A stretch of DNA of 64,000 bases from Sorghum bicolor. Lineage: Eukaryota > Streptophyta > Magnoliopsida > Poales > Poaceae. The DNA lies in NCBI RefSeq assembly GCF_000003195.3, contig NC_012878.2, positions 9,221,886 to 9,285,885 of the forward strand, given 5' to 3'. The translations under genes were made by a program, and so were the position numbers. This document shows positions 9,986 through 59,124 of the stretch, in pieces (positions within the stretch are counted from its first letter, which is position 1; each line of letters starts with the position of its first letter). The notes under the pieces were generated by a model. It ran no database searches. It saw only the letters and a list, made by a program, of their open reading frames with translations, and had not been told where the DNA came from.

Positions 9986-9993
9986 TATAAAAG
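9986..9993 (+). promoter_or_regulatory. TATA box of the antisense gene in the Gypsy element
   Basis: TATAAAAG lies 122 bp upstream of the ATG at 10115, in the context CTTCTATAAAAGCAG. Transcription would be expected to start near 10016-10022 and to run opposite to gag-pol. The motif is seen directly; its use is inference. Confidence 0.6.
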
Positions 9994-17395: not shown

Positions 17396-17398
17396 GTT

Positions 17399-17720: not shown

Positions 17721-17729
17721 AATACAAGA

Positions 17730-26664: not shown

Positions 26665-26670
26665 CTTGAT

Positions 26671-30064: not shown

Positions 30065-30069
30065 AGGGC

Positions 30070-31349: not shown

Positions 31350-31356
31350 AGCTTTC

Positions 31357-31374
31357 TGGCACCGTTGCCGGGGA
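31357..31374 (+). other. primer-binding site of the Athila-like element (tRNA-Asp type)
   Basis: TGGCACCGTTGCCGGGGA lies seven bases inside the 5' LTR. It differs by one base from the TGGCGCC... form commonly assigned to tRNA-Asp. It fixes the plus-strand orientation. Confidence 0.85.
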
Positions 31375-33730
31375 ACGGTAGCTGTGCTAGTTTCGAACCA
31401 AGTCGTCCGTGTAACCTTTTTCTTTTCCCTTTTTTACCACACTCACCTTACCATTTTCACTGCACCACATGGATTTCACTCTAAGCATTAATGAGCATGG
31501 AATTTATTTTATAGCCACTCCATTTACTCCATGCTCATATGCAACATCTTCCCAATCCATTGGTTTTTCCAACATCACCACATTCGAGATCTCCAACCCC
31601 CTCATCCTTTCTATTTATAAAAACTTTAAAAGGGCAGTTGTCGATGCATATGTCTATAAGAAATATTGCAGATCTCGTTGAGTTGATCTTGATATAGGTC
31701 AGCGTTGGAGGGGAAACCACTTCGCCGACATAAATTGATGGTTTCCCAAGGACAAGCTTAGTGTTCTAAAATAAGCACTGATCAGATCGTAACATGAGCT
31801 TTTAATTATTTGCAACAATACCTTGTGTGTTGAGCATATAAGTATAATTGTAAAAAATTCCTTCGGGTATTCTTGTCACTAACCTTTCCAGGATTGGAGC
31901 AAGAAGATCGGATGAATGACAAGCACAAGGTATGTACAACCAATCATCATCAGTGTTCGCCTAAACGGCCTAAACGGCCGATTAAACGGTCATTAAACGG
32001 TAAACGGTGGCAAACTGTTTTGTTTAGGGGTAAACAGGAAATTAAACGGTTGACCGTTTAAACGGTCAAAAAACGGGAAAAAACGGTCTAAACGGCCTAA
32101 ACGGAACGGTTTTAAAAGGTATTAAACGTGATAAACGGCTGTTTAAACGTCCGTTTAGGCAAACACCACATGAATCTAGTTGAACTTTATATCAACAATT
32201 TGTATACTTAAATTGATTATATTTATAAATATGTAAAATTGATTTATTACATGCATAAATATGTATATTTGATTCTTATAACATGCATAAATATATATAC
32301 ATAATAAAATAAATGGTTTTTTAGTTGCATAAATATGTATAAATGATAGAATCATTGATTTTACATTAAAAATATGTATATTTTTGTAATATTGTGTGAA
32401 ACCATTTAGACCGTTTTAATCCGTTTAAACACCGTCTAAACAGTCTAAACGCTAAACGAAGCGTGACCGACTGTTTACCGTTTTACGTTTAGGATAACAA
32501 TGATCATCATACAACATTGAATTAAATTCATCCAAACTTGAATTTTGCAAAATTCAAGCTTGGGGGAGTACTTTACATAAAAACATCCTTTGCCATGTTG
32601 CTATGTTGGTTGTCCCTACCTTTGACACATGCTCAATTTGTTAAATACTAATCACACTACTTCATCTCCACTTGAGTAGATCTCTATAAATGCTCTCACA
32701 CTACCTTTATTTGCTTTAGTATATGTCTAGGCTTGGAGTAGTTTCATTTATCTCTTAATTAAGCATGGTGCTTAGTTTAGGGCTGATGATCTTATTTCCA
32801 AGGGATTTTAAATTAAGCATAGTGCTTAGGTTAAAATGCCCTCCTATATCAAATTAGACATGGTGCCTAGGTTGATCTTTGAGCCGATAGTACGCTATAG
32901 TAGATATTGGATATTTTGTTGGACTAACCCCTGCAGGAAAACTTTCAATATCAACCTGGGAGGTCCTGAGATAAACTCACATTGGAGACAAAGTGAGAGG
33001 CACATAAAGTTTAACAATTTACATGAGGAAGACATAGCTCACAAGAGATGATCCATGGAGGGTGCCACAAACACGATGCATAACCGCTAAGAAAGAAAAG
33101 CTTCCACAAGGTGATACTATACCATCACTCTTCAAGTAAGGTAACATCTTAAGGTACTTAACTATCACTTTTATAAGCTTCTCCTTGGTTCTGGCGTTCA
33201 CATGAATAAAAGAGACAAACATGTATGATATACAACTCTAGATTAACCAACCCAATCGATTCAACATGTTTAGTCCTTCCACCTTTGTGATCCCACACTC
33301 CTAATCTTATGAGCTAAAATGTTGCACACTCAATCTTTGGAGGATATATTTTATAAAAAAACAACATAAATATAGACAGATTATCTTTCCATTAGGTTGA
33401 GCGATCTGATCTGACAAATGTTTTAAATGCTACACTCATGATCTTATTATCTATCAACTTTGTCTTGCTCACTATGCTTAAGGATAGAGAAGAGCAAATA
33501 CACTTTTAGTTCTGTTGGTGTTTTCCACCAACAGGGCCCATGCACTTGATCTCTGCCTTGTCTCTATGAGCAGGTACACTTCGAGCAAAATATGAAGGAC
33601 TTTTATAACTCCCAGACTCCACCAAGTGAAGTATCTAGATCTACGAGCACAAACACACTGGAGATACTAGACACTCAGGCAATCACTGCCCTGAGATGCT
33701 TGAGGACATAACTACTGGAGTAATCCTATT
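31375..33730 (+). other. interior of the Athila-like element without recognisable gag
   Basis: AT-rich sequence lies here where gag should be. Short open frames show no gag domain. Between 31951 and 32502 a hAT-type element is inserted. Nothing else can be supported. Confidence 0.6.
31951..32502. mobile_element. hAT-type non-autonomous element with AAACGG subterminal repeats
   Basis: A 552-bp element is flanked by a perfect 8-bp duplication ATCATCAT (31943-31950 and 32503-32510), the size typical of hAT transposons. The ends are inverted: CAGTGTTCGCCTAAACGG on the left versus CATTGTTATCCTAAACGT at the right end in reverse complement (15 of 18 match). Both ends are packed with AAACGG/CCGTTT words, as expected for transposase subterminal sites. 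The centre is AT-rich and non-coding. Confidence 0.88.
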
Positions 33731-34186
33731 GTGGAAGTAATTACTGACCTTCTGTCGGTCAAGAGAGACAATCCAGGACGCCCCGTCATCCCGATCTCTA
33801 TCGGCATGGTGGACTTCCTAGAAGCATTCTGCGACTTTGGCTCCAGCGTCAACATTATGCTCAGGGTACTCCATGAAAAATTCTTTACACATCTTTTACT
33901 AGAAACAACCATGTGTTTGCAGCTTGCAGATCAGACACTAAGTTTCCCAAAGGGGATATTGAAGAACTTCTGCGTCCGAGTTGGTACCTTGTACGTCCCA
34001 GCAGACTTCGTAGTGATAGAGACTGGTACTGATGAGAGGGCACCCATCATCCTAGGGAGGCCATTCCTAAACACCTCAGGAGCTGTCATCTACGCTAGTG
34101 CTGCCATCATCAGTTTCTACATCAAGGGGAGGAAGGAGATGTTTTCCTTCAAGAACAAAACTACACAAATCTTAGAGCAATCCTGA
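33731..34186 (+). pseudogene. retropepsin-like protease domain 1 of the Athila-like element
   Basis: The 151-codon frame carries FCDFGSSVNIMLRVL, an aspartic protease active-site region where the usual D-T/S-G is D-F-G-S. LQLADQTLSFPKGI and PADFVVIETG follow, then the ILGRPFLNTSGAVI strand. This layout matches the Athila-type retropepsin. Whether it is translated alone or as part of a polyprotein is not clear. It stops at 34184-34186, directly before the second protease-like segment. Confidence 0.8.
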
Positions 34187-34309
34187 CGTGAACCAAGGAA
34201 GGACCAACAGGAGGAACAGGAACAAGCAAATGTGGACCAAGTCAGCTAAGATGGTCACTGCAGTTCAAGGAGGTCAAGATCGTCAACTCAAGTCACCTTT
34301 CTTAATCAA

Positions 34310-34743
34310 GAAGGACGACCCTGGTGTTCCAAGCATCGAGTGCACAATCAACGGATATTCTTTTCAGAAGACACTCTACGACACCGGATCTAACGTCAAC
34401 ATAATGGCCGCAGTCACTTATCAGCTCCTGCATGGAACCATGTCCCTACAACCAACATACATTCAGCTCCAGATGATTTTAAGGTTATTGACATAGGAGA
34501 AGACGAGTACAATCCACCCATCATCCTTGGAAGACCGTTCCTCAGCTCCGTTAAAGCAATCATCTACATTGGAACCGGAGAAGTCCACAAGCACTTCCTC
34601 TCTGAAAAGGTACGCCGCTATTTTACTGACCTTAACTATATAGTTGAAGACTTTAAGCAGGTCGGACAAGAAGAAGACGACGCAACCGCAACCAGAGGAA
34701 GCAAATCATCAAGGATGGATGGGCAGACTACGAAGGAGAAGTA
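34310..34743 (+). pseudogene. retropepsin-like protease domain 2 of the Athila-like element (broken)
   Basis: A second protease-like segment reads SIECTINGYSFQKTLYDTGSNVNIM with the canonical D-T-G. It then has LQPTYIQLQM and, in another frame from about 34467, DFKVIDIGEDEYNPPIILGRPFL. The central strands between these parts are missing and the frame shifts, so the domain is non-functional here. An acidic linker follows and the frame ends near 34743. It is a diverged tandem partner of the domain ending at 34186. Confidence 0.75.
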
Positions 34744-37040
34744 GTAATGTCTGAAGACATACAACTTGAACAGAACTGTCCTGAGGAGACCGCAGCACCG
34801 AGTCAGGTGTGTAGAGAGAAGATAGTTATACATGAAGACCAGGCGCTGCCGGAACCACCGACTACGCCATCCAGCGAATCCCAGAATGACTGAGAAAACG
34901 GAGAGTCCCGTTCGGAGGACTTAAAAACACCGAACGCCTTGCCAAGAGGTAAACTTGGTAGTTATCTTTTTCCTTTCAATTATTTAATAGTTTGCTTAGT
35001 TAATCAGGTTCATATCATCTTAAAAAAATATTAAAAATAGTAAGCCCCATGTGAGTATGCTCATGGCATAAAACCCATAAGTACATTCACTGTGGTGGCG
35101 TGAAAATAAAATAAATATATTCCTGTCCTATAAAAATAAAATTATAAAAATAAATTTATGATCCTACTAAAGAGAGTAACATTTATTGAGGAGGCTCAAC
35201 ATGATAAAGGCTAGGTATTTATGCTAACACTTAACCAGTTCCACAAAGCTTTGTTGTCTATTTGAGCTCTATAGAATTCAAGGATCAAAGAAGACAAGCA
35301 GATGGAGGACATCCTAATCACTGTCAGGGTGCTGCTGACATTCAAATACACCTCCGCCACCTGCTAGCTACATCAGAAGAAACTTCGTCAAAATCCAGCT
35401 TGGGGGAGAGCACCCCCATTTATCCAGCTAAGTGTTTCTACTCACGTTTATACTTTACTCAAATAATAAAAAGATGCATAATCATAAAAACCCAAATAAA
35501 AATTTTGTGCTTATATATATCTTTGCTTAGTTTGCTAAATAAATAAAGTGTCTTGGTCAAACTGAACTTCAATGATGAACTCTTACATGGATATGATAAA
35601 TAGTTGCTCTGCCATGACTAGTTCTTAAAATTGAAATCTCTCTCAAGTTTAGCCATGACTGTTATTAATTATGATTTGCTCTAAACCTGAACTTGTGGGA
35701 AGAGTACTTGATCTGAAGTCTAAGTTGTTAACGGATATGATATGGGAAGGTTGAGCTGCTGTTTATCTGTTCCTAGAGATGCTAGAATTCTGGAGAATTT
35801 TATCTTTGAAAATCTTTAAAATGTTGCATGATGAGTTCCTGTATGATGAGAGTTTAAATTCCTACCACAACCATATATACATGCTTGCTAGACTTTGAGC
35901 CACACATTTACTTTACTACTTATGAGCATTGAGTGTGGTCAAGCTGTGTAGACCCTTAGGAGCTTGTCATGTGGTTAAATCAAGATTCACTTGCACGTTC
36001 ACTCACACATGCTACTTCTACTCCAGAAGTACCATCCATATATATCCATTTCCATCTCCAGAACCACCCAAAAATATTCTACTCCTAATCCGGGAGAGAA
36101 TAGCCAAAAACATTTCTGTTTTTCCCTGTGAAATAAATGCTCAAGTTATCTTGTTACTACCACTTGCTATATTATATCATGAGATGAGTGCTCTAAAAAA
36201 AGAAGAAAAAAAAGTATACGAGGAAATAAAAAGGGGCAAGTGCCCGGAACCTCGAAAGAAAAGAAAAAAAAAGTGAGACGAGAGGTAAAAATGGACAAGT
36301 GTCCGACAGTAGAATTAGGGGTACAAGATACCCACCTGAGAGGAAAGAAAAATAAAATATAGAGCATCTCATTCTCCTCAAAAAGTTTCAAAAGAGCAAG
36401 AAAGGTATGTATCCCCTCAAAAGAGCACAAATAGAATTAGACTTTCACCATTGTTATCACCATCATTACCATGCACCATTCATTCGCCACACATGCACAT
36501 CTTGATTTGACTTATTGACTTGTTTCTTTGGATCCATGGTTTGACTATGCAATAAATATCTTGTAAGTATGTATTAGCTGTCTCCCACCTATGAGCTCCA
36601 GATATCAAAACTTTGTTAGAGTAGGGTGAGAGAGAAGACAATGTCACTATGCCTCATACCAAAAATACCACATACTTTGAGAGAAGGCATATACCATTAC
36701 TACCTTGGTAAGGATCTAGAAATACCACAAAAGAGAGACTAGAGAGAGTCATACAAGGAATCTCTGAGTTTTATTTGAAAATCTGCAAAAACTCCAGAGC
36801 TATAGTTAATCGAAGAACAAGAGACATGGTGCTTGACTAGACTGTTCTATCTTTTAACTACTCAAGACAGAAGTGAAGGTTACAAGTCCCATGGTGAAAG
36901 GTAAAATGAGTAAGTTTTAAATCTTAACAGTTTACTCTAACCTAGAGATGAGATCTTGTTTGAATGCATGTGTATCTTTAAGGCATGAAACCACTGCAGA
37001 AACTCTTGAGTTCATCTTTGCTCAGGGACGAGCAAAGGTT
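34744..37040 (+). other. non-coding 3' interior of the Athila-like element
   Basis: More than 2 kb lies here where RT, RNase H and integrase would be expected. No motif of those domains is present in any frame. There are A-rich tracts near 36190-36290 and the usual purine-rich end at 37041-37055. Confidence 0.7.
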
Positions 37041-37055
37041 AAGCTTGGGGGAGCT
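37041..37055 (+). other. polypurine tract of the Athila-like element
   Basis: AAGCTTGGGGGAGCT abuts the 3' LTR on the plus strand, consistent with plus-strand orientation. Confidence 0.8.
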
Positions 37056-38335
37056 TGTTGACGGTCCTTAATGCTGATATTTAACCATCAACTAATCATG
37101 GAAAAGGATCTAAATGGAACCAACACCTAGACTTAGGGTTTTATCTGACAGAATTCCACGAGTTTTGGTGTTTGTCTATTTCTGCAGGGGGTTATCAGGA
37201 AATATAAAAGAAAGGCCCACACGTCGGGTTTACATAGAGATATTAACGTGTCGCGCAATTTTCTATCATCTAGAAGACTCCAGAAGCCACGGGACCGAAG
37301 CGGAGGCCGAGAGGACACAGGGACAGGGTGCCCGCCCTCCTTTCCTGGGCGCCCGCCCTCAGCCAGAGTCCAATCAGGACTCTCTTTCGGGATAATGCTC
37401 CACCGACCTAATACTTTAAGGAAAACCACACGATCAATGTCGGTTTGATCCGACGGCCCAGATTCATCTGAAAAGACTATATAAGCAAGGCCCCCTGGCC
37501 CTTGGAGATCATACCTCTTCTACAGAATCAAAGCTAGGGTTTCAATTCTTCATCCAAGTAGAGAGGATCCCTCTAGTTCTTCTAGTTCTACCTCTAGTTC
37601 ATCTAGATCTAGTTCTAGTTCATCTAGTTCTAGTTCTAGTTCCTCTAGTTCTAGTTCTAGTTAGTTCTAGTTGTAATCTAGAAAATAGGGAGAGAGAAGA
37701 GGAGAGCGGAGGAGGAGCCGGATCTGTCGGATCTTCCTCAACATTGTACTTTTGCAGCAACCGGTTCGTTCTTCATCGTTCTCCAGGTTCTTCAATTCAT
37801 AACTCCTGAGTTCTCTAATTACTTTTAATTACATTCAAGTTATTTATTGGATTCCCGCTTGCATCAAGTGCTCTAGTCTTTATAACGCTAGAGTAGTAAT
37901 TAATAGATTAGACGTGGTGTTTAGTCTTGCGATTACCTGGAATTGCACCCAATCCTGCGGATTGTTATGGTAGCCTTAGGGTAGTGACAGCCCTAACGGT
38001 CGACGTATTCCACCACGTTCGGATCGGTTTTTGTAGGACCGTAGTCGGAGCTTCCTAGCCCCCTTCTCATCTCTTTCTGTGGTTAGTGTTCTGATGTCCC
38101 GAAATAGATAATCTTGAAGTAATTCTTGATTCTTAGATCAACTAGAGAACTCTCAGGAAACTTTCTCTCTTCCCACCAAAAATACTTATATAATTATCCT
38201 TGGGCGATCTTGATTCTTAATTAGTACACTCACGTTCCCTGTGGAAAATCGATACTCTGGAATACTCCCGGGTGAAGGCTACATCGGTATCCGTGCGCTT
38301 GTGGATTTTTCTATTTGCGTTTAAAATACCCAACA
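37056..38335 (+). repeat. 3' LTR of the Athila-like element
   Basis: This 1280-bp repeat starts TGTTGACGG and ends ACCCAACA, with the same TATA box and TCTAGT array as the 5' LTR. Confidence 0.95.
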
Positions 38336-38589
38336 AGGGCCGGACGGACCCTCGCCTCGGTGGTAGGGTCAGAGATCCTAGACCTCTGACGCCCCCGTCG
38401 GGCACCCCCCGCATGGTGCCCCGAGCGCCTCCCACGCACTGACTGCGGTGGGGTTGGCTCGGGGCGAGGCTCGGCGTCACCTCGTGGTGGGAGGAGGACC
38501 ATGTCATAGCCGGAGCCAAGCGACATGAACTCCAAACTCCCAAACACAATGATGGTGCCGAGGCTGAGCGGATGGAATCCGTCTGCCAT
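38336..38589 (-). pseudogene. N-terminus of the Tat Gypsy gag
   Basis: The gag start lies at 38589 (MADGFHPLSLGTIIVFGSLE). It runs about 80 codons to the insertion point of the Athila-like element and resumes at 30064. It is 66 bp from the 5' LTR, past the primer-binding region, which supports this ATG. The sequence is Arg/Pro-rich. Confidence 0.75.
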
Positions 38590-38633
38590 CCTGGCTTTCC
38601 CCTCTGTAGGGAGAGATGAATGTCACGCAAAAG

Positions 38634-38654
38634 GCCCCTACCTGGCGCGCCAAC
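38634..38654 (-). other. probable primer-binding region of the Tat Gypsy element
   Basis: Directly inside the 5' LTR the element strand reads TTGGCGCGCCAGGTAGGGG. The position and TGG start fit a tRNA primer site, but the tRNA was not identified with certainty. Confidence 0.65.
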
Positions 38655-39660
38655 TGTCGGCGTCTAGACTCGTGGTCTAGACACAAACAAGTATAAGTAT
38701 GTGTGACTCTCTAAGCCCGGATGGTGATGCAAGTGGAACACAGAGAGTTTATACTGGTTCGGGCCAAGGATGCCCTACGTCTAGTGAGATCGGGGGTCTG
38801 TATTGCCTTGCACCCAAAGGTGCTTGTAGTAGGGGTGTACAAGCAGGTTACGAGAGTGGGCTAAGTCCCAGGTCTCAGCTTGGTGTGGTGGACAGAGCGC
38901 TGATTGCCACTCTGTGTGTGTGTGTGTGGACTCACTTGGAGTGTGGTGATCGTGTGTTGTTTGTATGGGTGGACCTGTCTCGGTTGTGAGCCCTGGCTCC
39001 CCTTTTATAGCCTCAAGGGGAGGCAGGTATTTACATGAGTGATCGGAGATTTCCTCTATTGAGTAGTGAAACCACAGTCCTGACCCTGTAGAAGCTTACC
39101 CATCCTGTCCTTGAGGCATGGCTGATAGCATGGCTGCTCCTGTGGAGGGTTACCGAGCCCTGTTGGTGTCATGGGGGTCGGATCGGTGATACTGCTGCCT
39201 GTCCTGTTAACAGTGGGAGAAGGCAGCAAATAGTGACACTGATTAATCTCCCCTATTCCTCTTTTACTGTGAGGCAGTACACCACAGCAAAAGAGGTAAG
39301 GTTGCATAGTGAAAGACGTAAGGCTGCAGTGACCGGGGTGGTTGGAATAGTCGCCACCATGCCCTGCTGCGACATGGGAGTTACTGCGCCTGTCACGTCG
39401 TGGGTACGGGCGCCGTACGTCCAAAGCCTTGCACCGTAATGGGGGATCAGGCGAAACGGCGCCGGCGCCCGAGCCCTAGAGGGGTCGGGCGAGGCAGAAC
39501 TCGCGCCCGAGGCCAAAGGGGTCGGGTGAGCCGTGGTTTGGTCCCGAGCCCAAGGAGCCAGACGAGACGGGGCCCGCGCCCTGGTGATTACGGGTGGTTT
39601 GTTTTGTCTTTTGTGATTTTTATTACTTTGATTTGGGTATCCTTTTTATGGTACCCAACA
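38655..39660 (-). repeat. 5' LTR of the Tat Gypsy element
   Basis: This 1006-bp repeat has a TATA box on the element strand at about 39009-39002. It carries a longer (GT)n run than its partner. About 40 differences from 7798-8798 were counted by eye. Confidence 0.95.
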
Positions 39661-41835
39661 CCCGTCTTCGTATCTTTTGCAAAATGACTCTCTATCTTTC
39701 TAGGGACTAAAAAGCCATGGCTGAAAATATTGTTCTCTGATTTATCGTGAGAGAAAAACACTATTGGCTGGCAGAAAAAGTACGGCTGATAAGACAAGCG
39801 AACGGGCTCAACTCACAGTCCAATTTGTCCACCAAGAACAGTAAACATGTTTAAAGATTCTATGTATGAAATCCTATGTGTAGAATCAGGTCAGTGTTTC
39901 AAAAAAAATCTTGTAGTTTTTCAAAAATCCCTCTCACCTCTTAGCTCTCGGCCCCTTGCACAACCACATAATTCCTCTCCTCTTCTCTCCTTCCTGCTCA
40001 GCCTCCACACTGCCATCGCTCAAGAATGGAAGCTGCGAGACCTTTGTGGTAGGGGGAGGAGTGCGTGGAGCACCATCGCAGTTCTTCGCGTCATGCGAGA
40101 TCTCATGGTCCTGTGGAGACTTTTGAGGAGAATCGCTTCATCCTCCTTTAGATCTAGCCAACACCTCCTTTGGATCTAGCATGATGGGGATGACGATTGC
40201 TCGCGCAAAGAGGTTTCCCGATTCAAGTGTCGTGGATGTGCGTGGAGTTCAACGGACGTTGTTCATCTCTAATGGTAGCGTCCAGGATAAGGACGATAAG
40301 CTGGATCTCGGCCTTTGCTAGGCGATGCAAGTTCTTTGCACAGGTCATTTCTTATGTATTTCTAATTTCTCTCATCCATTTTTTAGATTCAATTGCTTTA
40401 GTTCCGGTTCTGCCTCTATCACCGCATCCATGACTTGAACTACGTCAAGGTTAGTGTAGTGCATGATAATGGTTAGCATGTTCATAATTTATTTAGTGTC
40501 ATAATGTGTTGCTTCCTTTTAGAGAGGTAAATATTTGTATAGCCATAGTTGCATTTTGTTGTATTCCGTTCATAACAGTACCTAATTACATGCTTTGCAC
40601 ATTCAGAAGAGACACGTGTTGGCCTTCTCGACAAAGCAAAAGTGTCTCTGTTGTTTCTGTAGGGCTTAATTTAGCATTCACATTGAAGCCACAACAACCA
40701 TTTGTAGTAGGAGCTTAATTCAGCATTCACACTGAAGTCTAGGTTTTCATTTGTTCTAATAGTTGTTTTCCATATTTCAGATCTTAGACTTCTTGACTTA
40801 GCTAGCAATGAATTTTCATGGTGGCAAGTAACAGAATGTGTTAGCCTGCCCTAATCCTCTAGTGGATTTGCATGATGGATGTGAATTCTAAGGAATTGGA
40901 TTTTTTGCTAGTAATTTTGGGGATAAATTGGGAGAACTATATAGTGTGCTTTTAGCTAATGAGGAAAAAGGTGATCCCACAAGTATCTGCTTGGTCAACT
41001 ATTAGTTTGCAGCTCTCTGCCATTAAGTTAGATTATGTATATGTGCTAATCAAAATTGTTACTTGTATGTCGTGCCATAAAGCCTTAAGTGAGTATAATC
41101 TATTCTACAGAAAAAATATGAACAATTTCATGTTATATTAATATTAGAGATCAATATTTACATATTAGTATTCCTCTTCCTTCTAAAGAGGTGCTTGATA
41201 TGAACAAATTCAAAGAGAAAAATATGAACAAATTCATGTATATGTTGTAATTCTCAGACCATTCACTATCTAGTTGTTTTTCTTTCATTTTTTCTCTATG
41301 ACTTGTAATCTTGGTTATATAGGTATAATTTGTGTGCTGGGTGCTAGGCCAATGGCTTATTTCCTAAAATTTAGCATCCTACCAATCAGTCTCATGCTAT
41401 CTAGGTTTCTAAACTAGATTATCTGAATTATGGAACTATGTAATTAGGCAATCAACAGACACGCACATGATTAGTAAACTAGATATGTGACAAATAAATT
41501 CTCATTGTGCAATGGTAAAGATTGAAGGTCTTGATCACCTCCATAAGAGGGGCCAAGTCTTCTGATATTGGTTCGAATCCTATTGGGTTGGTTATGATGT
41601 AGGAAAGGTTTTCTCATGTAGATAATGGCTTTTGCGTAGCCCATAAAATAATTGGGACCTGGTTTTAGCAAATGTGACTTATCAGATTAATGTGCACTTT
41701 AAAATGCTTGAAAATTGCAGTAAAAATCATTTCAGTTATATTTCACTATGTTACCTCGAGATGTTAGAAGCTACATATTCTATATGTTTTCTTTAAATTT
41801 TGATTTGCCCCAAACACGTTTGCCCTAGTACTTGT
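39661..41835. other. intergenic spacer with repeat fragments
   Basis: Around 39700-39813 lies a fragment ending GACAAGCGAACGGGCT, like the terminus of a common grass MITE. The part at about 39840-40440 has gene-like base composition and an open frame (39847-40179, plus) but no recognisable domain. A SINE-like segment lies near 41500-41660. Otherwise it is AT-rich with nothing to support. Confidence 0.45.
41500..41660 (+). mobile_element. candidate tRNA-derived SINE
   Basis: A perfect pol III B box GGTTCGAATCC lies at 41570-41580. An A-box-like TGTGCAATGG lies about 60 bp upstream at 41506-41515, the spacing found in tRNA-derived SINEs. No tRNA cloverleaf is intact. A poly-A tail and target duplication were not identified, so the ends are approximate. 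Confidence 0.35.
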
Positions 41836-48154: not shown

Positions 48155-48745
48155 CTAGTAGCTGGACGGCGGCACTGGCGTGTACCATCTCCCGGCCTCG
48201 TCGTCGATGCTGTCGGCGGGGCGGTGCAGCAGAGCGTGGAGCAGGACGAGCAGGAGGCCGACGAGCAGCGAGGTGAGGATGAAGCCCGTGGCGCCCGTGA
48301 GCAGGAGCAGGACAAGCGTGACCGCGGAGAGGACCGCGATGACGACGCCGTCCCCGACGCCGCGCCCGCAGACCACGAGCGCCCCGTCCGCGTCGCGGTC
48401 GCGGAGGAAGTAGAGGACGAGCCAGGCGGCGAAGCAGGCGAGGAAGACGAGCATGGAGACCGGCCGCCAGAGGAGGGAGACGAAGACGACGAGCAGGACG
48501 ACGAGCGCGTAGTTGGCGGCGAAGTGCGCGAGGTTGGCGCGCGCGCGGCGGTACGCGGCCGAGAACCCGCGCGGGACGGAGAGCGCGCGCGGGTCCGCGA
48601 GCTCCCGCCAGGGGCGGCGCGTGGCCAGCGCGGACGCGCCGCGGGCCTTGGCGCGGGAGATGAAGTCGAGCGGGGAGGAGGAGGAGGAGGAGGCCCCCGG
48701 TGGCGGAGTGGAGGAGGTGGTCGGGATGGTTCCGTACTTGGACAT
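48155..48745 (-). CDS. PRA1 family protein (prenylated Rab acceptor)
   Basis: This is a small membrane protein of the PRA1/YIP3 family, which interacts with prenylated Rab GTPases and acts at the ER, Golgi or endosomes (family knowledge). The chosen start at 48745 gives 196 aa beginning MSKYGTIPTTSS, matching the usual plant PRA1.F-type N-terminus. The conserved pre-membrane region RRPWRELADPRALSVPRGF and SAAYRRARANLAHFAANY follows. Two hydrophobic hairpins come next: ALVVLLVVFVSLLWRPVSML plus VFLACFAAWLVLYFL, then VIAVLSAVTLVLLLLTGATG plus FILTSLLVGLLLVLLHALL. The polar tail ends WYTPVPPSSY. There is no intron, as is common in plant PRA1 genes. An in-frame ATG at 48868 would add 41 Ser/Thr/Pro-rich residues unlike the family; it is probably 5' UTR but cannot be excluded. 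The gene is GC-rich and looks intact. Confidence 0.93.
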   Translation of the reverse strand: MSKYGTIPTTSSTPPPGASSSSSSPLDFISRAKARGASALATRRPWRELADPRALSVPRGFSAAYRRARANLAHFAANYALVVLLVVFVSLLWRPVSMLVFLACFAAWLVLYFLRDRDADGALVVCGRGVGDGVVIAVLSAVTLVLLLLTGATGFILTSLLVGLLLVLLHALLHRPADSIDDEAGRWYTPVPPSSY

Positions 48746-49010
48746 GGCTGGCTGGGGACGGTCGTGGACGGTGGTCGGCGCCGGCGAAGTCGCGGAAGTG
48801 GTCGGGATGCTAGCTATGCGATGTGACGAAGTGGGGTGGGGTGAGGTTGACGTGGAGTAGCTGGACAAGGGAAGGTATCAAGCGTGTCGGCATAATTTGT
48901 GTGGATTTTGTTCTGAGCTACGCGGGCCGGCCCAAATTATGCCGTCTCTCACCTTGGCAACTCCAAAAAAAAAAAAGAAACAATCTTTGGCTGAGTCCAC
49001 TGAAACGCTC
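48746..49010 (-). promoter_or_regulatory. 5' leader and proximal promoter of the PRA1 gene
   Basis: The segment upstream of the chosen start ends at a MITE at 49011. No clear TATA box was found. The assignment is positional. Confidence 0.4.
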
Positions 49011-49559: not shown

Positions 49560-49564
49560 TCCGT

Positions 49565-50267
49565 TGTTGACACCGTTTTTGGGCACGTATCCAGGACGGC
49601 AGGATAAGATGGCAGTGTTTTGATTACAGGATGAGTTGCCGATGAGGATGGTTGCCGATAGGGGAGAAATTGAACGTGACTAAGTCTACAGGCGGTGATG
49701 TGTTTGTGCCGATGGCTATGATGAGGAAATCTGCCGATGACTATGGCAAGGGAGTCTGCCGATAATACGAAGGGAGAGTCCGGAAGCTGCCGATCGGTTT
49801 GTGGAGGAGTTTCAGTTTGTCACGGGGGATAGTTTTGTTATTTCCTTAATTATTTACATCGTTTTGTATACGGATTCCGTGTAATTTGGAATTCGAATTC
49901 TAATCGTGTCTGGTTGTAGCTCTTTGAGCAGGGTATAAATATAGACCCTAGGACCTTGTAATGATCTATCTATCAATCAATCAAACACACGTTTTTATTC
50001 ATATTCCAGCATCTACTTTTTCGACGACTTCGTCATACTTTTTCCCTTTTATTACGAGTTCTTAGGAATTCGTCGACTTAAGCTCGGCGTGTTCTCGAGT
50101 TCCGCGTGAGTACCTCTTAGCCGTGACATCCGGGCGCATCGCTGTTGTCAGGACTAAAGTGTTCGAGTTATCACCTTTGCCGATAGTAAGGTCAAATCGG
50201 CTGGCACGCCTTAACGTTTGAATCGGGTATTAGCCCTTTGTGTTTGCAGATCAGTTTTGCATCAACA
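49565..50267 (+). repeat. 5' LTR of the PMD-carrying Gypsy element
   Basis: This 703-bp repeat has a TATA box TATAAATA at 49934-49941 in a GGGTATAAATATAG context. GCCGAT or ATCGGC occurs eight times within it. Confidence 0.95.
49934..49941 (+). promoter_or_regulatory. TATA box in the 5' LTR
   Basis: TATAAATA lies 334 bp before the LTR end, as expected for the U3/R boundary. The same box is at 58797-58804 in the 3' LTR. Confidence 0.75.
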
Positions 50268-50274
50268 CATCTTT

Positions 50275-50292
50275 TGGCACGCCCAGTGGGAC
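50275..50292 (+). other. primer-binding region of the PMD-carrying Gypsy element
   Basis: TGGCACGCCCAGTGGGAC begins eight bases inside the LTR. The TGG start and position fit a tRNA primer site, but the tRNA was not identified. Confidence 0.65.
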
Positions 50293-50313
50293 AGATCCAA
50301 GATCAAGATCAAC

Positions 50314-53300
50314 ATGTCGACTTCTGAGTTTGATCAAGAGAACGTCATCCCCGTGACGGAAGCCAATCTCAAGGATGAGCAGAAGCAAGCTATTGCTAAA
50401 GCCATGGAGGATTACAAGCAGCAATGCCTGAGGTCCTTCAGCATGAACAGGAGCGGTGAGGTGATTCAGAAGGATGCACTGCCGGCCCCTCGGCAAGTTA
50501 CTTTTGAGTCCAATCCTGGCAAACTTCAAGAGATGGTTGACAGCGCTATCAACCGTGCTTTGATCAACTAAGCTGGTGTACTGTCTAATACGGTTTTCAA
50601 TGCCGTGGCAAGAACTTTCAAGGAGGGACAATTGCCACCGGATTATGTGGGCCCCACTTATCACCAGCCAAAGTCACCAGTGGTCACAGCTCCATCGGCT
50701 GCTACGGCCGCTGCGGGTATGGAGATTCCTGTTCCACCAAGTACGTTGGGAGTCACCAATGGACAATCTATGCCGATGACAACTAATCCACAGACTTCAG
50801 ATGGGCAGATTAAACTTGCCACAGATCTGTTAGCATCGGCAATGACAGGGTTAACTCCTCCTCCCAACTGGTGGGGTTATGGCATGCCTCCAGAGTTAAC
50901 ACCGGGTACATCGCAGACGACTGACATGAGAGGCAAGACCCCTATGGCATCGGCACCTCCCAATATGCCGATGAACCAGAGTCCCCAGTATACTACTACA
51001 ACTACTACTGCAAGACCTTACACTGGGAATTCTCAAGCTCCAACGTTCCAGATGCCTAACGCATCGGCAGACTCGATGCTGATGCAACAGAGGTCTATGG
51101 CTCAATCAGGGTATGTCAATTCAACGATGATGCCCAATTACCAGTCATCGGCAGGGCCTATGCCGATGAACGCTAATAATGGATGGCTTGGGCAGCAAGC
51201 CTTTCTGCAAACGCCCCAACAGAGTCACCAGGCTACAGGGTTCCAGCAAGGACAGGTCTATCCCGGGTTCCAGAATCAGGGGATCTCTAACCAGCCAATG
51301 AATTTCGGCCAACAGGTCGGCAGACAGCAGATTGGCGGGCAACAGCTTGGTGGCCCACAGGTGGGAGGCCAGATAATCAACCCAATGTTCCGTGCAGATC
51401 GTGTACCGAACAGACACGTGGAGGCTTACCAGCAGGTGCCGGATCCACAACCACCCCATCGGCAAGATGCCGATGCGTACTGGGCCGATAAGATCGCTGA
51501 AGTAATGAGGGATCAATTTGGGATAAAACCCAAAGTCAACACTTACTCTTATCGGACACCGTATCCTCCCGCATATGATTTGATCCCGCTTCCGCATCGG
51601 TACAAGGTGCCAGATTTTACTAAGTTTTCTGGGCAAGACGACACGTCAACCATGGAGCATGTCAACAGGTTCATCATTCAATGCGGAGAAGCTGGTAACA
51701 GGGATGAATTGAGGGTTCGTCTATTTTCATCATCGTAGTCTGGATCGGCCTTTACCTGGTTCATATCATTACCTCCTAACTCAGTGATTACTTGGGCCGA
51801 TCTGGAGAAACAATTCCACAAATACTTCTTTTCCGGGGTTCACGAGAAGAAGATCACCGATCTAGTCAAATTGAGACAACGCAATGATGAATCGGTTGAA
51901 GGTTTTGTGCAGAGGATACGGGAAGTCAAAAATAAATGTTATAGCCTGGTTTTAGATGATCGGCAGCTAGCCGATTTGGCTTTCCAGGGTTTATTGCCAC
52001 ACATCAGGGACAAGTATGCTTCTCAGGAATTTGAAAGCTTAAGTCATTTGGTGCAGAGGATTTCTGATCAAGACATCAAGCCCTTCGAGCCCAAAAGAGC
52101 ATGGAACAAGAAGGTATCATTTGTTGATGAAGCAACAAGCTCAGATTCTGATGAGGAGCCAGTCATCGGCTTGGCAGAGTGGGTAAAGAACAAGAAGCCG
52201 ATGTCTTGTCCTTTTGGACAGAAGGAACCAGAAAAATTTACTTTTGACACTGCTAAGGCCGATAGGATATTTGATTTTCTACTTCAGGAAGGACAGATCA
52301 AACTGTCTCCTAATCACGTGATCCCATCGGCTGAAGAATTGAAGAGGATGAAATATTGCAAGTGGCATAATGCAACTTCTCATGACACCAATGAGTGCAA
52401 AGTTTTCAGACAGCAGCTGCAATCGGCCATAGAGTCTGGGAGAATCAAGTTTGACAGTTCCAAGATCCAGAAGCCGATGAAGATAGACCAACATCCTTTC
52501 CCGACAAACATGTTGGATGCAAAGGGGAAGGCCAAGGTCTTAACATCGGAAGCAGCTGAGAAAACTGCATCGGTAGATCCTCAGCATCAGATTACTACTG
52601 CCGATGCAAAAGGTAAAGGCTTGGTCCAGGAAGGAACCAATTCAGGTAGGCCTCCTCGGTCTGGCATCGTTATAACTCATAGAAGGCCTCGAGAGAACTG
52701 GCAGCAACGGGAAGATCGGTATCGGCGCCAGCAAGAAGATTATCGTCGGGAGGAAGAGAGGTGCCGGCAGGAGTGGAATCGGCATAGAGATCATTGGAAC
52801 TATCCGTTTTTCATCCATTGTTGGGAGGAGAATATTAAGCTTCCCACTATCAGAGACTGCCCCGAGTGCAATGGTTATGATCGGTACGACAGGACTGATC
52901 GGCGTTATCATGATGACAATCAGCGATTTAATGGGCGGATCAGAGGAAGAGCATCAGTTCATGATTGGCTGGGGGGCAGGCTCAGCGTGCACGATAGGCT
53001 TGGTGATCGTGTCCAATATTTTCCCAGAAACCAGGAAGAGCTCGAGGAGATGGCTAATGCACGAGTTCCCGATGAGTTCATATTTTGCAGGGATGCTAAC
53101 ACGCATCGGATGGAGTCAAGGGAGAACCGACGCCCAGCAGCAAGGCAGAAGCCACTCCCTCCGTGGTGTCCTGAAGGGTTAACCAAGACACAGAAAAGGA
53201 GATTGCAACGCGAAAGGCAGGAGGAGCTAAGCAAGGGCGAGAACGCTGGTCAGTCTGGAGGTCAGCAGCAATCAGATCTTAAGAGGGAAGGTCCATCGGC

Positions 53301-53973
53301 AGGAGTTAACATGGTCTTTATGTTGCCGATGGAGTTTCTTGCACCATCCAGTGATGATGAATTGGAATTTTCCGATCAGATAGCTCAGCTGGCTCTGGAT
53401 CCGATGACAGCTATCTTTGAGAAACCTGCCGATGACGAAAGGCAGCATCTCAAGGCTCTGTTCGTCAAAGGAAGGGTTGATGGGCAGCCGATGACCAAGA
53501 TCTTAGTTGATGGTGGGGCTGCTATCAATATTATGCCATATGCAGTATATCGGAAGCTTGGGAAAGGGGATCAGGACTTGACCAAGACCGATATGATGCT
53601 TAAAGACTTTGAAGGGAACGTGTCTCCAGTCAAGGGGGCAATATGTGTAGAGTTGACCATCGGCAGCAAAACCTTGCCGACAACTTTATTCGTGATCAGT
53701 GGAAAGGGTGCTTACAACTTATTGTTGGGAAGAGATTGGATTCATGCCAATTGTTGCATCCCATCTACAATGCACCAATGCTTGGTTCAGTGGGTAGGTG
53801 ACAAAATTGAGATTGTCTCGGGAGATTCTTCTTATGTCATTGCAGCGGCAGAGGCGGATACCTATGAGAGGACCAGGTGCATTTCAGGAGAAGTTTGGGA
53901 GAAAGATTTTCTCAAAGTTGCCGATTACGAGATTCCACCGATCCAAGCAGTCGGTTCTGACGAAGGTTTTTAA
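50314..53973 (+). pseudogene. gag-protease polyprotein of the PMD-carrying Gypsy element
   Basis: One frame of 1220 codons is interrupted by TAA at 50569-50571 and TAG at 51736-51738. It starts MSTSEFDQENVIPVTEAN. A Met/Gln/Pro-rich linker follows, then the retrotransposon gag core (VPDFTKFSGQDDTSTMEHV, AFTWFISLPPNSVITWADLE, KITDLVKLRQRNDESVEGFV). A degenerate zinc knuckle CKWHNATSHDTNEC lies near 52360, followed by an Arg/Glu/Gln-rich region. The aspartic protease has KILVDGGAAINIMPY and LLLGRDWIHANC. The active site is D-G-G rather than D-T/S-G, as in the other Gypsy element here. The frame ends at 53971-53973, just before the pol remnant. Confidence 0.9.
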
Positions 53974-54353
53974 TGGATAGGTTCGCCGATGATGGAAAGT
54001 TAGGCCAGGGATTCACATCGACCGATGAGTTAGATGATTTAGCAGGACATCGGTTAAAGGCTTTGATGAGTATAGAAGAAAATAAGAAGAGAGTTGCTAG
54101 ATGGTATGACAAGAAAGTAAAGGCTAAGGAGTTTGCCGATGGGGACTTGGTATGGAAATTAATTTTACCAATCGGGACTAAAAGTTCGAAGTTTGGAAAG
54201 TGGTCTTCTAATTGGGAAGGTCCTTATCGGATAAGTCGATCGGCTCCTGGAAATGCCTATATTCTAGAAACTCTCGAAGGAGTTGAATTTCCCAGAGCAT
54301 TAAACGGCAAATATTTAAAAAAGTACTACCCTAGCATATGGGTCGATGCATAG
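53973..54353 (+). pseudogene. deletion-joined pol remnant: integrase C-terminal domain
   Basis: The 126-codon frame joins a short RT-linker start (MDRFADDGKLGQGFTSTDE) directly to the integrase tail. The tail has LKALMSIEENKKRVARWYDKKV, KEFADGDLVWKLILPIG, SSNWEGPYRI and NAYILETLEG, the Gypsy integrase C-terminal SH3-like region. RT, RNase H and the integrase zinc finger and core are missing. The junction at about 54025-54035 is seamless and in frame. Confidence 0.85.
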
Positions 54354-54363
54354 AAGTTTAGGT

Positions 54364-54448
54364 GCCGATAACACTCCTATCGGCTGGATTCAAATGTTTG
54401 GGGGCAGGACTTAATGTTTCAAAAGATGCCGATAACAGTCCTATCGGC
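54364..54448. terminator. twin GCCGATA...TATCGGC hairpins between convergent genes
   Basis: Two 21-bp inverted repeats, 54364-54384 and 54428-54448, each consist of GCCGATA, a seven-base loop and TATCGGC. They lie exactly in the gap between the plus-strand pol remnant and the minus-strand PMD gene. A role in transcript ending or RNA structure is inference. Confidence 0.4.
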
Positions 54449-54502
54449 TAGACTAAAAACTAAAAAAAGCAGGAAGACACAGATATGTGGCCGATGAAAA
54501 CT

Positions 54503-57500
54503 TTATGTGTTAAGCAGCGCCTGGATCGCCGATATGGCGCGCAGCCGGATTTGGTTGGCTCCTTCTATCTCCTTAATATCATCATCGGCAGAGCCTTCTA
54601 TCGGCTTCAGCTTCTTCTTCAATTGAAGTGTCTTGCGACTGTGGACGTTTCGCTCGTGCTCAAGGAGCTTGATGGTCTCTGGCAGTTGGCTTTCTTCCTG
54701 TTGGGCTTGGGATAAGGCGTCCTCCACTTCCTTGAGTTCTGCCAACAGGGATTCCCTTCTTGCCGATAGATCGGATATTTTCTGCTTCAGCGCATCTCCT
54801 GAAGATCTCAAGATGCCGATGTTCTTGTGCTTCTCATCGGTCAGGAGCTTCTCCTTCCTCATTTCTTCAGAGAGCTGAGTCTGAGCAGCTCTATCGGCAA
54901 GACGCCGAGAATCCCTTTGGTACTGCAGCTGACGACTTTCCAAATGTGCGGCTTGGAAGAGGATTTCTTCGACATCGGCTGAGATTTGGCCTCTGAGAGT
55001 TCTGAATAGAATTTTGGCTGGGTCGGAGTCATCGATCAATTGCGCCGTGTCCTGGTGGAGGAGGGCTGACAATTCTTCCAGCCTGGCCCTGACCTCTGCC
55101 GATGTAATGCCAACTGTCTGAGAGGAGCTTGCTTCTTCACCTTCTTCTTCAGAGAGATCGATGGCGAAGGAGAACAGGCTGTTGGGAGAATCTTGTTCCT
55201 GGGAGGGAGAGTAAAGTCAGTTCATACTCGGGGAATCGGCAAGTAATGTTGATAAAGATTGGGTGACTTACTTGTTTTAAGGCTATTTCCTGTCTTTGTC
55301 TGGAAGATGCTGATGGAGCCGTAGGTTGATCAGCCGGAGTTGCCGATGGAACGACATCGACTGAAAGAAGACAGGAAGAGTTATGAGGCTGAATGAGAAT
55401 AAGTTCATCGGCGGTGGTATTATTAAAATATGTTACCCGGGGGAGGAACGATGATTGTTTGAGTCGGGGGAACTGCCGATGATGTAATTGGACCCGCCGG
55501 GCCAGTTGTTTGTCCACCCACGTCAGCTGATGTACCTTCTGCTTGGGGTTCTTCCTGCTAGGGTTCGTCTGCTTCTAGTGCTTCCTGCGGATGAAGGGGA
55601 GATGGTGCTTGCTGGATCTCCACATCTGGAGGGGAGGGAGAAGATTCCACCGGAATAGGAGATGCCGGAGGAGGAGGAGGAGTTGCCACTTTCTGGCGCT
55701 TTGTTCCAGCCCTGGTACTCTTGGCGCCCTTCCTCTTTGGCTGGCTGGACTGGGGGGCATCGGCACCTTGGCGTATGGCTTTTGCCGATGCGCTGGTTTG
55801 CTGCAGTAACAAGAAAAAGTTTATGAGTATAAATGTAGCCGACATAAAGGTAATTGGTATAAATGAAAAAGGGTTGACAAATTGCCTTGAAAGCTTGTGC
55901 CAGAGTGGAAGCGGCTACCGTTGATGATGTTTGAGTTCTCTTAGTGGTGACTTTCTTAAGGCGCACACCCCGGTGCACGATGGTAGCCAGAGTGGGAGCA
56001 TTGTGGCCGATTGAGGAAATTGGGCCTGCTGGAAACAGGTCAATCGGCTTACCACTTCTGCTAACCGATGGAGGGATGTTGTCAACCTGCAAAAGGGATA
56101 CAAAGGTGAGTTACCGATGGAAATAGAATTAAAAAAAAGAGATTGAAACATCGGTTTGAAATACTTACAGCGTCGTCGGGGACTTTGTACTCGGGATCAA
56201 TCATGCCGCGATATGAAAGGGCTGATTTGCAGAATAGATGCTCCTTCCATTCTGCCCACCATAGTTTGTATGCCTGAGTAATGAAGGCGGCTGGAACCCA
56301 CTCTGACAAATCTGCATCTGTATCGGCATTTGGTGGTAGTTGGGCTACTCGGATCCACTCCAGAAAGTTGGTGATGGGCTCCCTGGGTTTTATCACATCG
56401 GCATAACAGAGTGCAATCGGCAACTGGCCGAAAGCCAATTGGCGAGCTAATGCCGATGGATTGTAAAATTCATAAGTTTGGGGAGAGGTTTTTGTGCTAC
56501 CAAAGAAATTCACTGGTATGGATCTAGGAGTCACAATTGCCATCATCACCTCATTATCCCTGTCAAGAGCTTCATCAAATGGATTGAAAACCAAGGGGAG
56601 AATACTGTCTGGATCGTCATAGGCCAACTGTGGTCGTTCATCTCTGGCCAAGCCCTCATACAGAGTCTGGAAGAATCGGCCGATCTGATCTGGATTACCC
56701 CCTGAACCAGGCAAGACTATGACGGCTTCGCCGAAGTTTAGAGGAGCGCGTGTTGCCGATTCTTCCTCACCCAGCACATGATTTTCAGTTATATCTCTTG
56801 GGAAACACTGTGTGAATAAGTTAAAGTTGAGGCGCTTGTGCAGATGCAGATTGAGCCACATGTTGATAAACTACCAGGGGCCGCCTAAATTGCCAGTAGA
56901 CTGGCCGAGCAGGAGTTTCTTGGCCACCTGATGGAGAAGGTGGTAAGCAGCGCCAAGCAAGTATCGGCCAAGAGGGAATCGGCCACCGTTAGCTAGTCTC
57001 TCTGCTGCCGATAGATAGACGGAAGTCGGTCCTGCCGACCGACCACAGAACACAAACTTGTCCAGCCACATGTTCAGAAAGGTAGTTTGTTCTTTTATGC
57101 TGACAGGCCCCGTCCCACGATACTTCTGAATGTACCCTGACCAGCCGCCGATAGCGCGAGTCTCCACTTTGGCACTAGGAGCGGTATTAAAAAAGTGGGT
57201 GCTATCGGCAGAAGATACATCTAGACCGGTGAGCATGGCTACATCGGCAAGAGTAGGAGAAGCAGGGCCATGGCCAAAGACAAAAGCATTGAGGGTGTCT
57301 GACCAAAAGTAAGATGCAGCTATCAACAGTGACTCATTCCTGTGCATATCGGCAGTGGACAACCTAATGCATTGATCTAGCTTTCTCTCACCCCACTGGA
57401 CTTCATTGGAGTTGCTGACTCTCAAGAACCAGTCTTTCCACCCTACAGTAGGGCTGGGCCAAGAGCGGAAGGTGTCTTTCCATAGATCTAAAGAAAAATT

Positions 57501-57774
57501 TTCGGCTCTGAAAGGGATCCTATTGGTTTCTGCGTTAATAAGATCGGTTGGATCTAGATCCCCTAGAGGGCCGAGGCATTGGAGGTGTGGTTGATCGGTG
57601 GGGATGACGATTTTGTTAGACAATTCCTGGTGGTTTTTGAAATAAAGAAAAAGAACACGAAGAAAAGAAAAGAAAATGTTCAGTAAAATGGATTGCGGAT
57701 GAACAGGGATGCGAGGAAAAGTACAGGGGATGGAATGAAGAACTGACCTCAGGGACGATGAAGCTAATAGCCAT
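54503..57774 (-). pseudogene. antisense plant mobile domain (PMD) gene with coiled-coil C-terminus
   Basis: A six-exon gene lies on the strand opposite gag-pol. Exons are 57774-57748, 57626-56169, 56086-55886, 55800-55437, 55360-55272 and 55198-54503, about 940 codons. All phases agree. Introns are GT-AG except intron 3, whose donor reads AAG/GC (GC-AG). Exon 1 codes only MAISFIVPE. Exon 2 carries the plant mobile domain (aminotransferase-like, as in MAIN/MAIL1; family knowledge), with ASYFWSDTLNAFVFGHGPAS, TLADVAMLTGLDV and KLWWAEWKEHLFCKSALSY. Exons 3-5 are Ser/Pro/Lys-rich and look disordered. Exon 6 is a long Leu/Glu/Lys/Arg/Gln coiled coil (ISDLSARRESLLAELKEVED) ending at 54503. Two in-frame TAG stops break this copy, at 56871-56873 (after LGGPW) and 55558-55560 (after EADEP). 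Function in the element is unknown; a role in chromatin or silencing is speculation. Confidence 0.88.
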
Positions 57775-58402
57775 CTTGCAACGAGGAGGATGCCTGAGGG
57801 CTTCGGGGTTGATGAGGAAGAGTCTTTGTCGGAGGTCTTGGAGATATTGAATGGCGCCGCCGCTGGAAAAGTAAAGTTGGGATGGTGGAATGATGTGATG
57901 GGGAAGGAGTACCCGAGAAGGAACTATTTTTAGGATAAAACGGGCAAGGGCAAATCTGACTTATCTCTTTGCCGCATCCGAGAAATCCGAGGGTGCTCAG
58001 GTAGATATGGTAACTGTTCGCACGGTAATCAAGGGATTGTGCAGGTGATTTGACGGGAAGCGGTCATTATCTGGAGATATTTTACTGTGCGAGATCTCCT
58101 GGTCGGTCCATCGGCAGCGTTCTGTAACGGTCATATTGCCGATGGGCGAATAAAGTGAAGGTAGCCGTTTGTACGAACGTCCTGATCAGTACATCGGCAG
58201 ATCTTCGTAACGGTAATATTGCCGATGTACGGTTGAGAAAGAAATGCCTGTTTAGGAAGTTGAGGATTTCGAGGAATCCGCAGAAGAATAGGATCAGAGT
58301 TGTTCAGATTGAGGCTGTCGGTTACCAGATTGGGAGCATTAATTGCGGGAAAAGGCATCATTACTGCAGAGAATTTCGGAGCATTAATGATTTCATACTC
58401 CG
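57775..58402 (-). promoter_or_regulatory. upstream region of the PMD gene
   Basis: This 5' leader and promoter region lies between the PMD start codon and the 3' LTR purine tract. A TATA-like CTAAAAATAG on the minus strand lies near 57935-57925, about 150 bp before the ATG. Two related 36-bp hairpins (58109-58144 and 58192-58227) lie further upstream. Promoter use is inference. Confidence 0.45.
58109..58227. repeat. two 36-bp CATCGGCA...TGCCGATG hairpins
   Basis: Both 58109-58144 and 58192-58227 begin CATCGGCA and end TGCCGATG with a 20-base interior. Both interiors contain GTAACGGT followed by ATAT. The copies are 83 bp apart. Confidence 0.75.
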
Positions 58403-58417
58403 AAATTGGGGGGCATG
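58403..58417 (+). other. polypurine tract of the PMD-carrying Gypsy element
   Basis: AAATTGGGGGGCATG abuts the 3' LTR on the plus strand. Confidence 0.8.
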
Positions 58418-59119
58418 TGTTGACACCGTTTTTGGGCACGTATCCAGGACGGCAGGATAAGATGACAGTGTTTTGATTACAGGATGAGTTGCCGATGAGG
58501 ATGGTTGCCGATAGGGGAGAAATTGTACGTGACTAAGTCTACAGGCGGTGATGTGTTTGTGCCGATGGCTATGATGAGGAAATCTGCCGATGACTATGGC
58601 AAGGGAGTCTGCCGATAATACGAAGGGAGAGTCCGGAAGCTGCCGATCGGTTTGTGGAGGAGTTTCAGTTTGTCACGGGGGATAGTTTTGTTATTTCCTT
58701 AATTATTTACATCGTTTTGTATACGGATTCCGTGTAATTTGGAATTCGAATTCTAATCGTGTCTGGTTGTAGCTCTTTGAGCAGGGTATAAATATAGACC
58801 CTAGGACCTTGTAATGATCTATCTATCAATCAATCAAACACACGTTTTTATTCATATTCCAGCATCTACTTTTTCGACGACTTCATCATACTTTTTCTCT
58901 TTTATTACGAGTTCTTAGGAATTCGTCGACTTAAGCTCGGCGTGTTCTCGAGTTCCGCGTGAGTACCTCTTAGCCGTGACATCCGGGCGCATCGCTGTTG
59001 TCAGGACTAAAGTGTTCGAGTTATCACCTTTGCCGATAGTAAGGTCAAATCGGCTGGCACGCCTTAACGTTTAAATCGGGTATTAGCCCTTGTGTTTGCA
59101 GATCAGTTTTGCATCAACA
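58418..59119 (+). repeat. 3' LTR of the PMD-carrying Gypsy element
   Basis: This 702-bp copy differs from 49565-50267 at six sites by eye, one of them a one-base deletion in a T-run near the end. Confidence 0.95.
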
Positions 59120-59124
59120 TCCGT

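Follow-up and report, generated by a model that had tools for sequence, protein, structure and literature searches.

Work by Steinbauerova in 2011 is reportedly the source for the extra open reading frames and plant mobile domain (PMD) genes of Ogre and other Gypsy elements. PMD-A1 and PMD-A2 are described as exclusively Gypsy-encoded (Ikeda 2017, PMC5418596), a PMD is given for 57% of Ogre elements (Neumann 2019, PMC6317226), and the domain is the most frequent atypical one in a survey of plant LTR elements that also places DUF1409 in Oryza Gypsy consensuses (PMC9289625). Its function is stated to be unknown in a review that proposes a counter-silencing role for PMD proteins encoded by transposable elements (TEs) (PMC8616336), and an anti-silencing idea for MULE-captured PMD proteins is likewise in print (PMC5418596). 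In Arabidopsis, the DNA transposon VANDAL carries dense short motifs bound by the element-encoded protein VANC, which causes the whole element to lose methylation (Hosaka 2017, PMC5735166; Sasaki 2023, PMC10398659); as reported, these motifs are mainly noncoding, form tandem arrays in one orientation, and diversify between families. Retand elements, finally, have antisense Transposase_28 genes suspected to encode a DNA-binding regulator (Vicient 2025, PMC11963269).

We analyzed a stretch of 64,000 nucleotides from Sorghum bicolor (the window), which holds at 49565-59119 a grass LTR retrotransposon of the Gypsy type, young but already decayed, ~9.6 kb long and recognized by its pair of direct LTRs and by a target-site duplication. 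The two LTRs are identical at 697 of 703 aligned positions, with five substitutions and one gap, and at the grass substitution rate of 1.3e-8 per site and year this gives an age of about 0.3 million years. The assignment to the Gypsy type, with Tat as the candidate lineage, was made with the reverse transcriptase (RT) deleted, the relatives of the gag-protease (gag-pr) product including rice and sorghum proteins with RT domains. The features are as follows:

49560-49564: target-site duplication TCCGT, left copy
49565-50267, plus strand: 5' LTR, with 8 GCCGAT/ATCGGC sites, 7 of them in plus orientation
50314-53973, plus strand: gag and aspartic protease frame, with 31 GCCGAT/ATCGGC sites
53974-54353, plus strand: pol remnant
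54503-55198, minus strand: PMD exon 6, C-terminal region, 67% identical to Miscanthus P0001 and 18% to rice P0003
55272-55360, minus strand: PMD exon 5
55437-55800, minus strand: PMD exon 4, low-complexity linker with basic stretch, in-frame stop at 55558-55560
55886-56086, minus strand: PMD exon 3, junction less certain, GC donor
56169-57626, minus strand: PMD exon 2, holding the PF10536 match, in-frame stop at 56871-56873
57748-57774, minus strand: PMD exon 1, start codon
57775-58417, minus strand: upstream region of the antisense PMD gene, putative promoter
58418-59119, plus strand: 3' LTR
59120-59124: target-site duplication TCCGT, right copy

A preliminary description of the window had reported a six-exon PMD gene antisense to gag-pol, and both its structure and its identity hold. 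The six exons run in consistent phase on the minus strand from 57774 down to 54503, between the pol remnant and the 3' LTR, and the Pfam scan of the product of the joined exons (944 residues including two stops, which were read as X) places PF10536 at residues 94-273 with 57.5 bits against a cut-off of 34.9 (E 1.7e-15). Two in-frame stops had been overlooked. A TAG codon in each of exons 2 and 4 interrupts the frame, so that a full-length PMD protein cannot be made by this copy. Intron 3 has the donor GC instead of GT, which makes the exon 3 junction less certain. The proposed succession of PMD, disordered region, and coiled coil stands as to its order and a low-complexity linker, whose basic stretch, shared by exon 4 and Miscanthus P0001, resembles a nuclear localization signal by eye; a low-confidence model of a rice relative shows the C-terminal tail as helical, and the AlphaFold2 models of six grass PMD proteins have a mean pLDDT of 32.6. 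No solved structure matched by sequence at E up to 0.1, and NCBIfam gave no match for the three proteins examined.

The closest relative of the product, Miscanthus floridulus P0001, is 57% identical over 91%, so the six-exon gene is not a chance reading. The relatives comprise two Miscanthus proteins (P0001 and P0002) and three Oryza proteins and one further (P0003-P0006). Identity to P0001 is 66% in the PMD part, 49% in exon 3, 33% in the linker of exons 4-5, and 67% in the exon 6 tail; the corresponding values for Oryza P0003 are 42%, 21%, 23%, and 18%. Oryza P0003 and P0006 have the N-terminal PMD in common with the window's protein and carry DUF1409 in their C-terminus. For exon 6 of the window, DUF1409 (PF07197) was not listed at E up to 10, in a search whose HMMER filters drop most weak matches, and the match in P0001, 67% identical there, is below the cut-off (E 0.014).

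We compared the stops with a neutral drift simulation (substitutions only, 60 runs, stops counted in one copy of descendant pairs). At a protein identity of 66% the mean number was 8.6 and the minimum 2, and at 46% they were 15.2 and 6; the 2 stops observed thus fall within the simulated range at the higher identity. These counts suggest, modestly and indirectly, purifying selection on the wider PMD gene lineage.

We place the gene provisionally among the Gypsy PMDs (PMD-A clade) by its location in a Gypsy-type element alone. It resembles the described cases as an extra PMD-coding gene in a plant Gypsy element and differs from them in that this copy is broken, has lost RT, without which its lineage is not placeable, and carries a GCCGAT code. 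As Gypsy-encoded PMDs and the counter-silencing idea have both been published, the antisense PMD gene itself is not new and represents a further, broken instance. The suggestion in the preliminary description that it encodes an anti-silencing factor is reasonable and had, as the available text of two papers shows, already been proposed in print (PMC8616336, PMC5418596).

The sense genes of the element are decayed as well. Gag (PF03732, E 1.6e-11) and protease (PF13975, E 5.4e-7) are recognizable by Pfam on the plus strand, and their frame is interrupted by two stops inside it, which end at 50571 and 51738; a third stop, at 53973, lies near the end point of relatives such as P0009 and P0016. 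The loss of RT and the integrase core noted earlier is confirmed, as the scanned plus-strand frames of the PMD-bearing element gave no Pfam match to RT, RNase H, or the integrase core. A C-terminal integrase piece persists in the pol remnant, fused near 54020 to a piece that by eye resembles the start of the RT frame of sorghum P0045; the junction of these two pieces lies within 54000-54060.

From the retention of the PMD gene despite the loss of pol functions, the preliminary description had concluded that the gene matters for the element's success. We looked for the same deletion among the 120 matches listed of 1437 relatives of the pol remnant (integrase), the candidates in this comparison being about 71-225 residues. 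Nine listed relatives cover >85% of the remnant, and in all nine the fetched sequences have the integrase core upstream of the junction; the remaining 111 end at about the junction. None of the 120 listed therefore shares the deletion, and we rejected the idea that the pol-less copy is one of an amplified PMD-keeping family. With the PMD frame itself broken and the deletion unseen in these relatives, the retention argument carries little weight. A stronger reason to suspect sequence recognition of the element is a short motif that extends over its full length on both strands, TGCCGATR with the core GCCGAT.

GCCGAT or its reverse complement ATCGGC occurs 89 times in 49565-59119, 49 times on the plus and 40 times on the minus strand, against 12 occurrences in the remaining 54445 bp of the window. 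It ranks first among the hexamers of the element, ahead of shifted forms of itself, and 300 dinucleotide-preserving shuffles of the element gave a mean of 4.1 sites and a maximum of 10. The commonest 8-mer around the core, TGCCGATG, accounts for 32 of the 81 sites that remain when the 3' LTR is set aside. With the 3' LTR left out of the noncoding figure, density is nearly the same in coding (9.0/kb; 62 in 6875 bp) and noncoding sequence (9.6/kb; 19 in 1978 bp), and three of the five PMD introns and the leader (46-121 bp) have no site. The sites fit the reading frames in several phases and on both strands. When synonymous codons were shuffled in 1000 rounds with protein and codon usage preserved, gag-pr retained on average 5.3 sites (maximum 12; observed 31) and the PMD exons 5.5 (maximum 13; observed 28), so that coding content does not explain the excess.

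The similarity of the 12 + 12 bases flanking the sites, 0.266, is close to the 0.249 at random places, which shows that the sites do not derive from a longer repeat; a single tandem repeat of 1.9 copies was found. Words expected from CpG decay are not enriched (GCTGAT 6 vs. 6.6 expected; GCCAAT 7 vs. 6.3), and the other one-mismatch words are mostly near expectation except ACCGAT (18 vs. 3.7 expected). Each site is thus a single word, and the words are distributed element-wide over both strands, largely independent of the encoded content. The even coverage, the use of both strands, and the indifference to coding suggest that some factor binds the element's double-stranded DNA over its length; the strand balance in particular (49/40 in total, 35/38 outside the LTRs, with the LTR uneven at 7 to 1) fits recognition of double-stranded DNA and not of RNA.

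Some local arrangements were also seen. Ten gaps between sites measure 15-19 bp (uncorrected p 0.001), and the short-range order leans to ATCGGC...GCCGAT (12 of the 26 gaps of at most 40 bp). Two diverged copies of an inverted pair (ATCGGC, 22 bases, GCCGAT) lie 83 bp apart at 58110-58226, upstream of the PMD start codon, with ATCGGC at 58110 and 58193 and GCCGAT at 58138 and 58221; this could be a candidate autoregulatory site.

Like VANC and VANDAL, the element combines an element-encoded protein with a dense, short, element-specific motif, and the high enrichment of a short motif within the element is thus a shared trait. The second VANC-type trait, motifs mainly in noncoding tandem arrays of one orientation, is absent in the PMD-bearing element, where GCCGAT is dispersed, lies on both strands and in coding sequence too, and is apparently the same word in rice. 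VANDAL is furthermore a DNA transposon and the present element an LTR retrotransposon. Given these differences, VANC/VANDAL is at most a working analogy. A GCCGAT code in LTR retrotransposons was unreported in the titles and abstracts listed by the searches, which leave subscription journals mostly outside, so that an earlier report is possible; two papers that treat VANC (PMC12844716, PMC12859917) have no such motif in LTR elements in their available parts.

The comparison with Retand concerns the arrangement of the gene. In both cases an antisense gene lies between pol and the 3' LTR, and a Transposase_28 ORF is also found in this window; the domain is another one than the PMD, and the region of the window's Transposase_28 element has no GCCGAT excess. 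That antisense ORF (9875-10630, plus strand; PF04195, E 1.4e-19) belongs with a second Gypsy-type element on the minus strand, in which RT, RNase H, and integrase were found at 23827-29356. The plus-strand segment 21655-22783 is grouped with the Transposase_28 element and holds, at 22316-22783, a possible coiled-coil-like continuation of the ORF. The two parts are apparently separated by an inserted Copia-type element (14691-19421, minus strand), whose frame at 15896-17398 matches gag-pre-integrase, integrase, and part of RVT_2. In 4-kb bins, the 12 occurrences of GTTCTAGT in the window fall six each into 28001-32000 and 36001-40000, and TAAACG peaks at 32001-36000 (15 of 26). Beside the insertion of the PMD-bearing element, a minus-strand open frame of 240 codons (48155-48877) resembles a PRA1-family host gene by eye.

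Evidence on the motif from relatives comes from proteins, the element itself being the only copy seen as DNA. Viral contigs contained no DNA of relatives for the Miscanthus PMD, gag-pr, one LTR 18-mer, or one leader 18-mer, and genome contigs none of gag-pr relatives; nine matches of one LTR 18-mer to bacterial records of the genome contigs were taken as chance. We asked how the residue pairs coded by the motif fare in these proteins. Of such pairs in the PMD gene, 18 of 24 are identical in Miscanthus P0001, compared with 2 of 13 where the same dipeptides are encoded without the motif (Fisher p 0.0013) and 307 of 730 for all pairs. For P0002 the fractions are 14/18, 3/12, and 263/631, and for P0004 5/11, 1/3, and 85/313; Oryza P0003 shows no excess (3/11, 1/4, and 83/329). 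Among 12 gag relatives chosen from 65, motif-coded pairs are better conserved in ten, the exceptions being P0011 (8/12 vs. 9/11) and P0032 (4/15 vs. 4/13).

A broader test took 2080 hexamers, derived the residue patterns that each would force in any frame and on either strand, and compared their occurrence with that expected from composition. GCCGAT ranked first for the window's PMD protein, third for its gag-pr, and second for Miscanthus P0001; for P0003-P0006 together it ranked first with z 8.8, the next hexamer reaching 6.4. As controls, seven other proteins encoded in the window ranked it 410-1889, and its rank was 547 in a Rhododendron gag relative. When only places differing from the window were considered, GCCGAT ranked first for P0003, for P0003 and P0006 together, and for five hand-chosen gag relatives together (P0020, P0024, P0032, P0012, and P0027; z 6.5). 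Single gag relatives gave rank 2 (P0032), 4 (P0027), and 12 (P0024), and P0007 alone gave 29; no clear excess was seen at such places in P0006 (83), P0020 (295), P0012 (396), P0017 (781), and P0001 (1139), each taken alone. Over the 71 relatives from the PMD and gag searches, GCCGAT took the first rank in 16 proteins, one of the first 20 ranks in 45, and a rank within the top 5% in 58; these counts are not independent, as the proteins are related. The 13 outside the top 5% include three from dicots (ranks 105, 547, and 697) and the rice gag proteins P0031 (262) and P0064 (309). This fair, indirect evidence suggests that in grasses, including rice, many elements of this group have the same word built into them.

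We give a probability of roughly 0.4 to the reading that GCCGAT is a recognition code and the PMD protein the first candidate for its reader, countering silencing or setting expression. The protein is a natural candidate because it is element-encoded, has a conserved PMD and a potentially oligomerizing tail, and is kin to host silencing proteins. As a dispersed code, GCCGAT would let a sequence-specific DNA-binding factor coat the chromatin of the element. In intact copies, the antisense gene would give rise to a nuclear PMD protein that oligomerizes through its helical tail and binds GCCGAT at many places in every copy of its family; once bound, it would counter silencing or set expression, much like VANC does for VANDAL elements. 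The present, broken copy could still be a target in trans without making the protein. More tentative is the extension of this scheme, by which PMD-bearing grass Gypsy elements would share an old, element-wide TGCCGATR self-recognition code that is bound by their own PMD and keeps their chromatin accessible.

The reader could equally be a host factor or another protein of the element. Possible, if rather doubtful, is accordingly a reading in which a host transcription or chromatin factor, or the integrase complex or Gag, recognizes the motif as DNA and the PMD protein has an unrelated job. Six of the eight LTR sites lie upstream of the TATA-like sequence TATAAATA at 49934, as transcription-factor sites would, and the imprint is present in gag relatives that may or may not come with a PMD gene. 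Promoter sites, on the other hand, are not spread as evenly as the motif is over gag and the PMD gene, and the use of both strands argues against an RNA packaging signal.

The PMD protein might also work against silencing as a competitor of the host's MAIN/MAIL1-PP7L complex, in which case no DNA motif would be required. TE silencing involves PMD proteins of the host, of which MAIN and MAIL1 are reported to bind PP7L, and counter-silencing by TE-encoded PMDs has been proposed in the literature cited above; the element-wide motif would be left unexplained, and we regard this reading as improbable. Still less can be said for a role of the antisense unit as a transcript, in which convergent transcription would yield double-stranded RNA for tuning the element and the protein would be of secondary importance. 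Such a role has been proposed for antisense ORFs in LTR elements of plants (PMC7264820), and the PMD protein of this copy is broken. The protein is, however, conserved to rice and its stops are below the drift mean; we consider the transcript role very unlikely. The least probable explanation is that the motif has no reader and was spread within the family by a mutational or gene-conversion process, since, even if short words can be amplified by neutral processes and a single copy was seen as DNA, the flanks are unrelated, the sites stand in several phases and on both strands, and the one-mismatch words other than ACCGAT are mostly near expectation.

Whatever its reader, the motif is worth explaining because it has apparently shaped the encoded proteins of grass elements. 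A dense, element-specific word beside a PMD gene makes the function of the PMD testable by one binding assay, a question that covers transposons as well as the host silencing proteins MAIN and MAIL1. If the PMD protein is the reader, a gene family that is known but lacks an explanation would turn out to encode sequence-specific chromatin factors, and LTR retrotransposons would gain a VANDAL-like self-recognition system, a retrotransposon counterpart of VANC/VANDAL that would have arisen independently. It would also mean a DNA-recognition role for the PMD, that of the host MAIN/MAIL proteins included.
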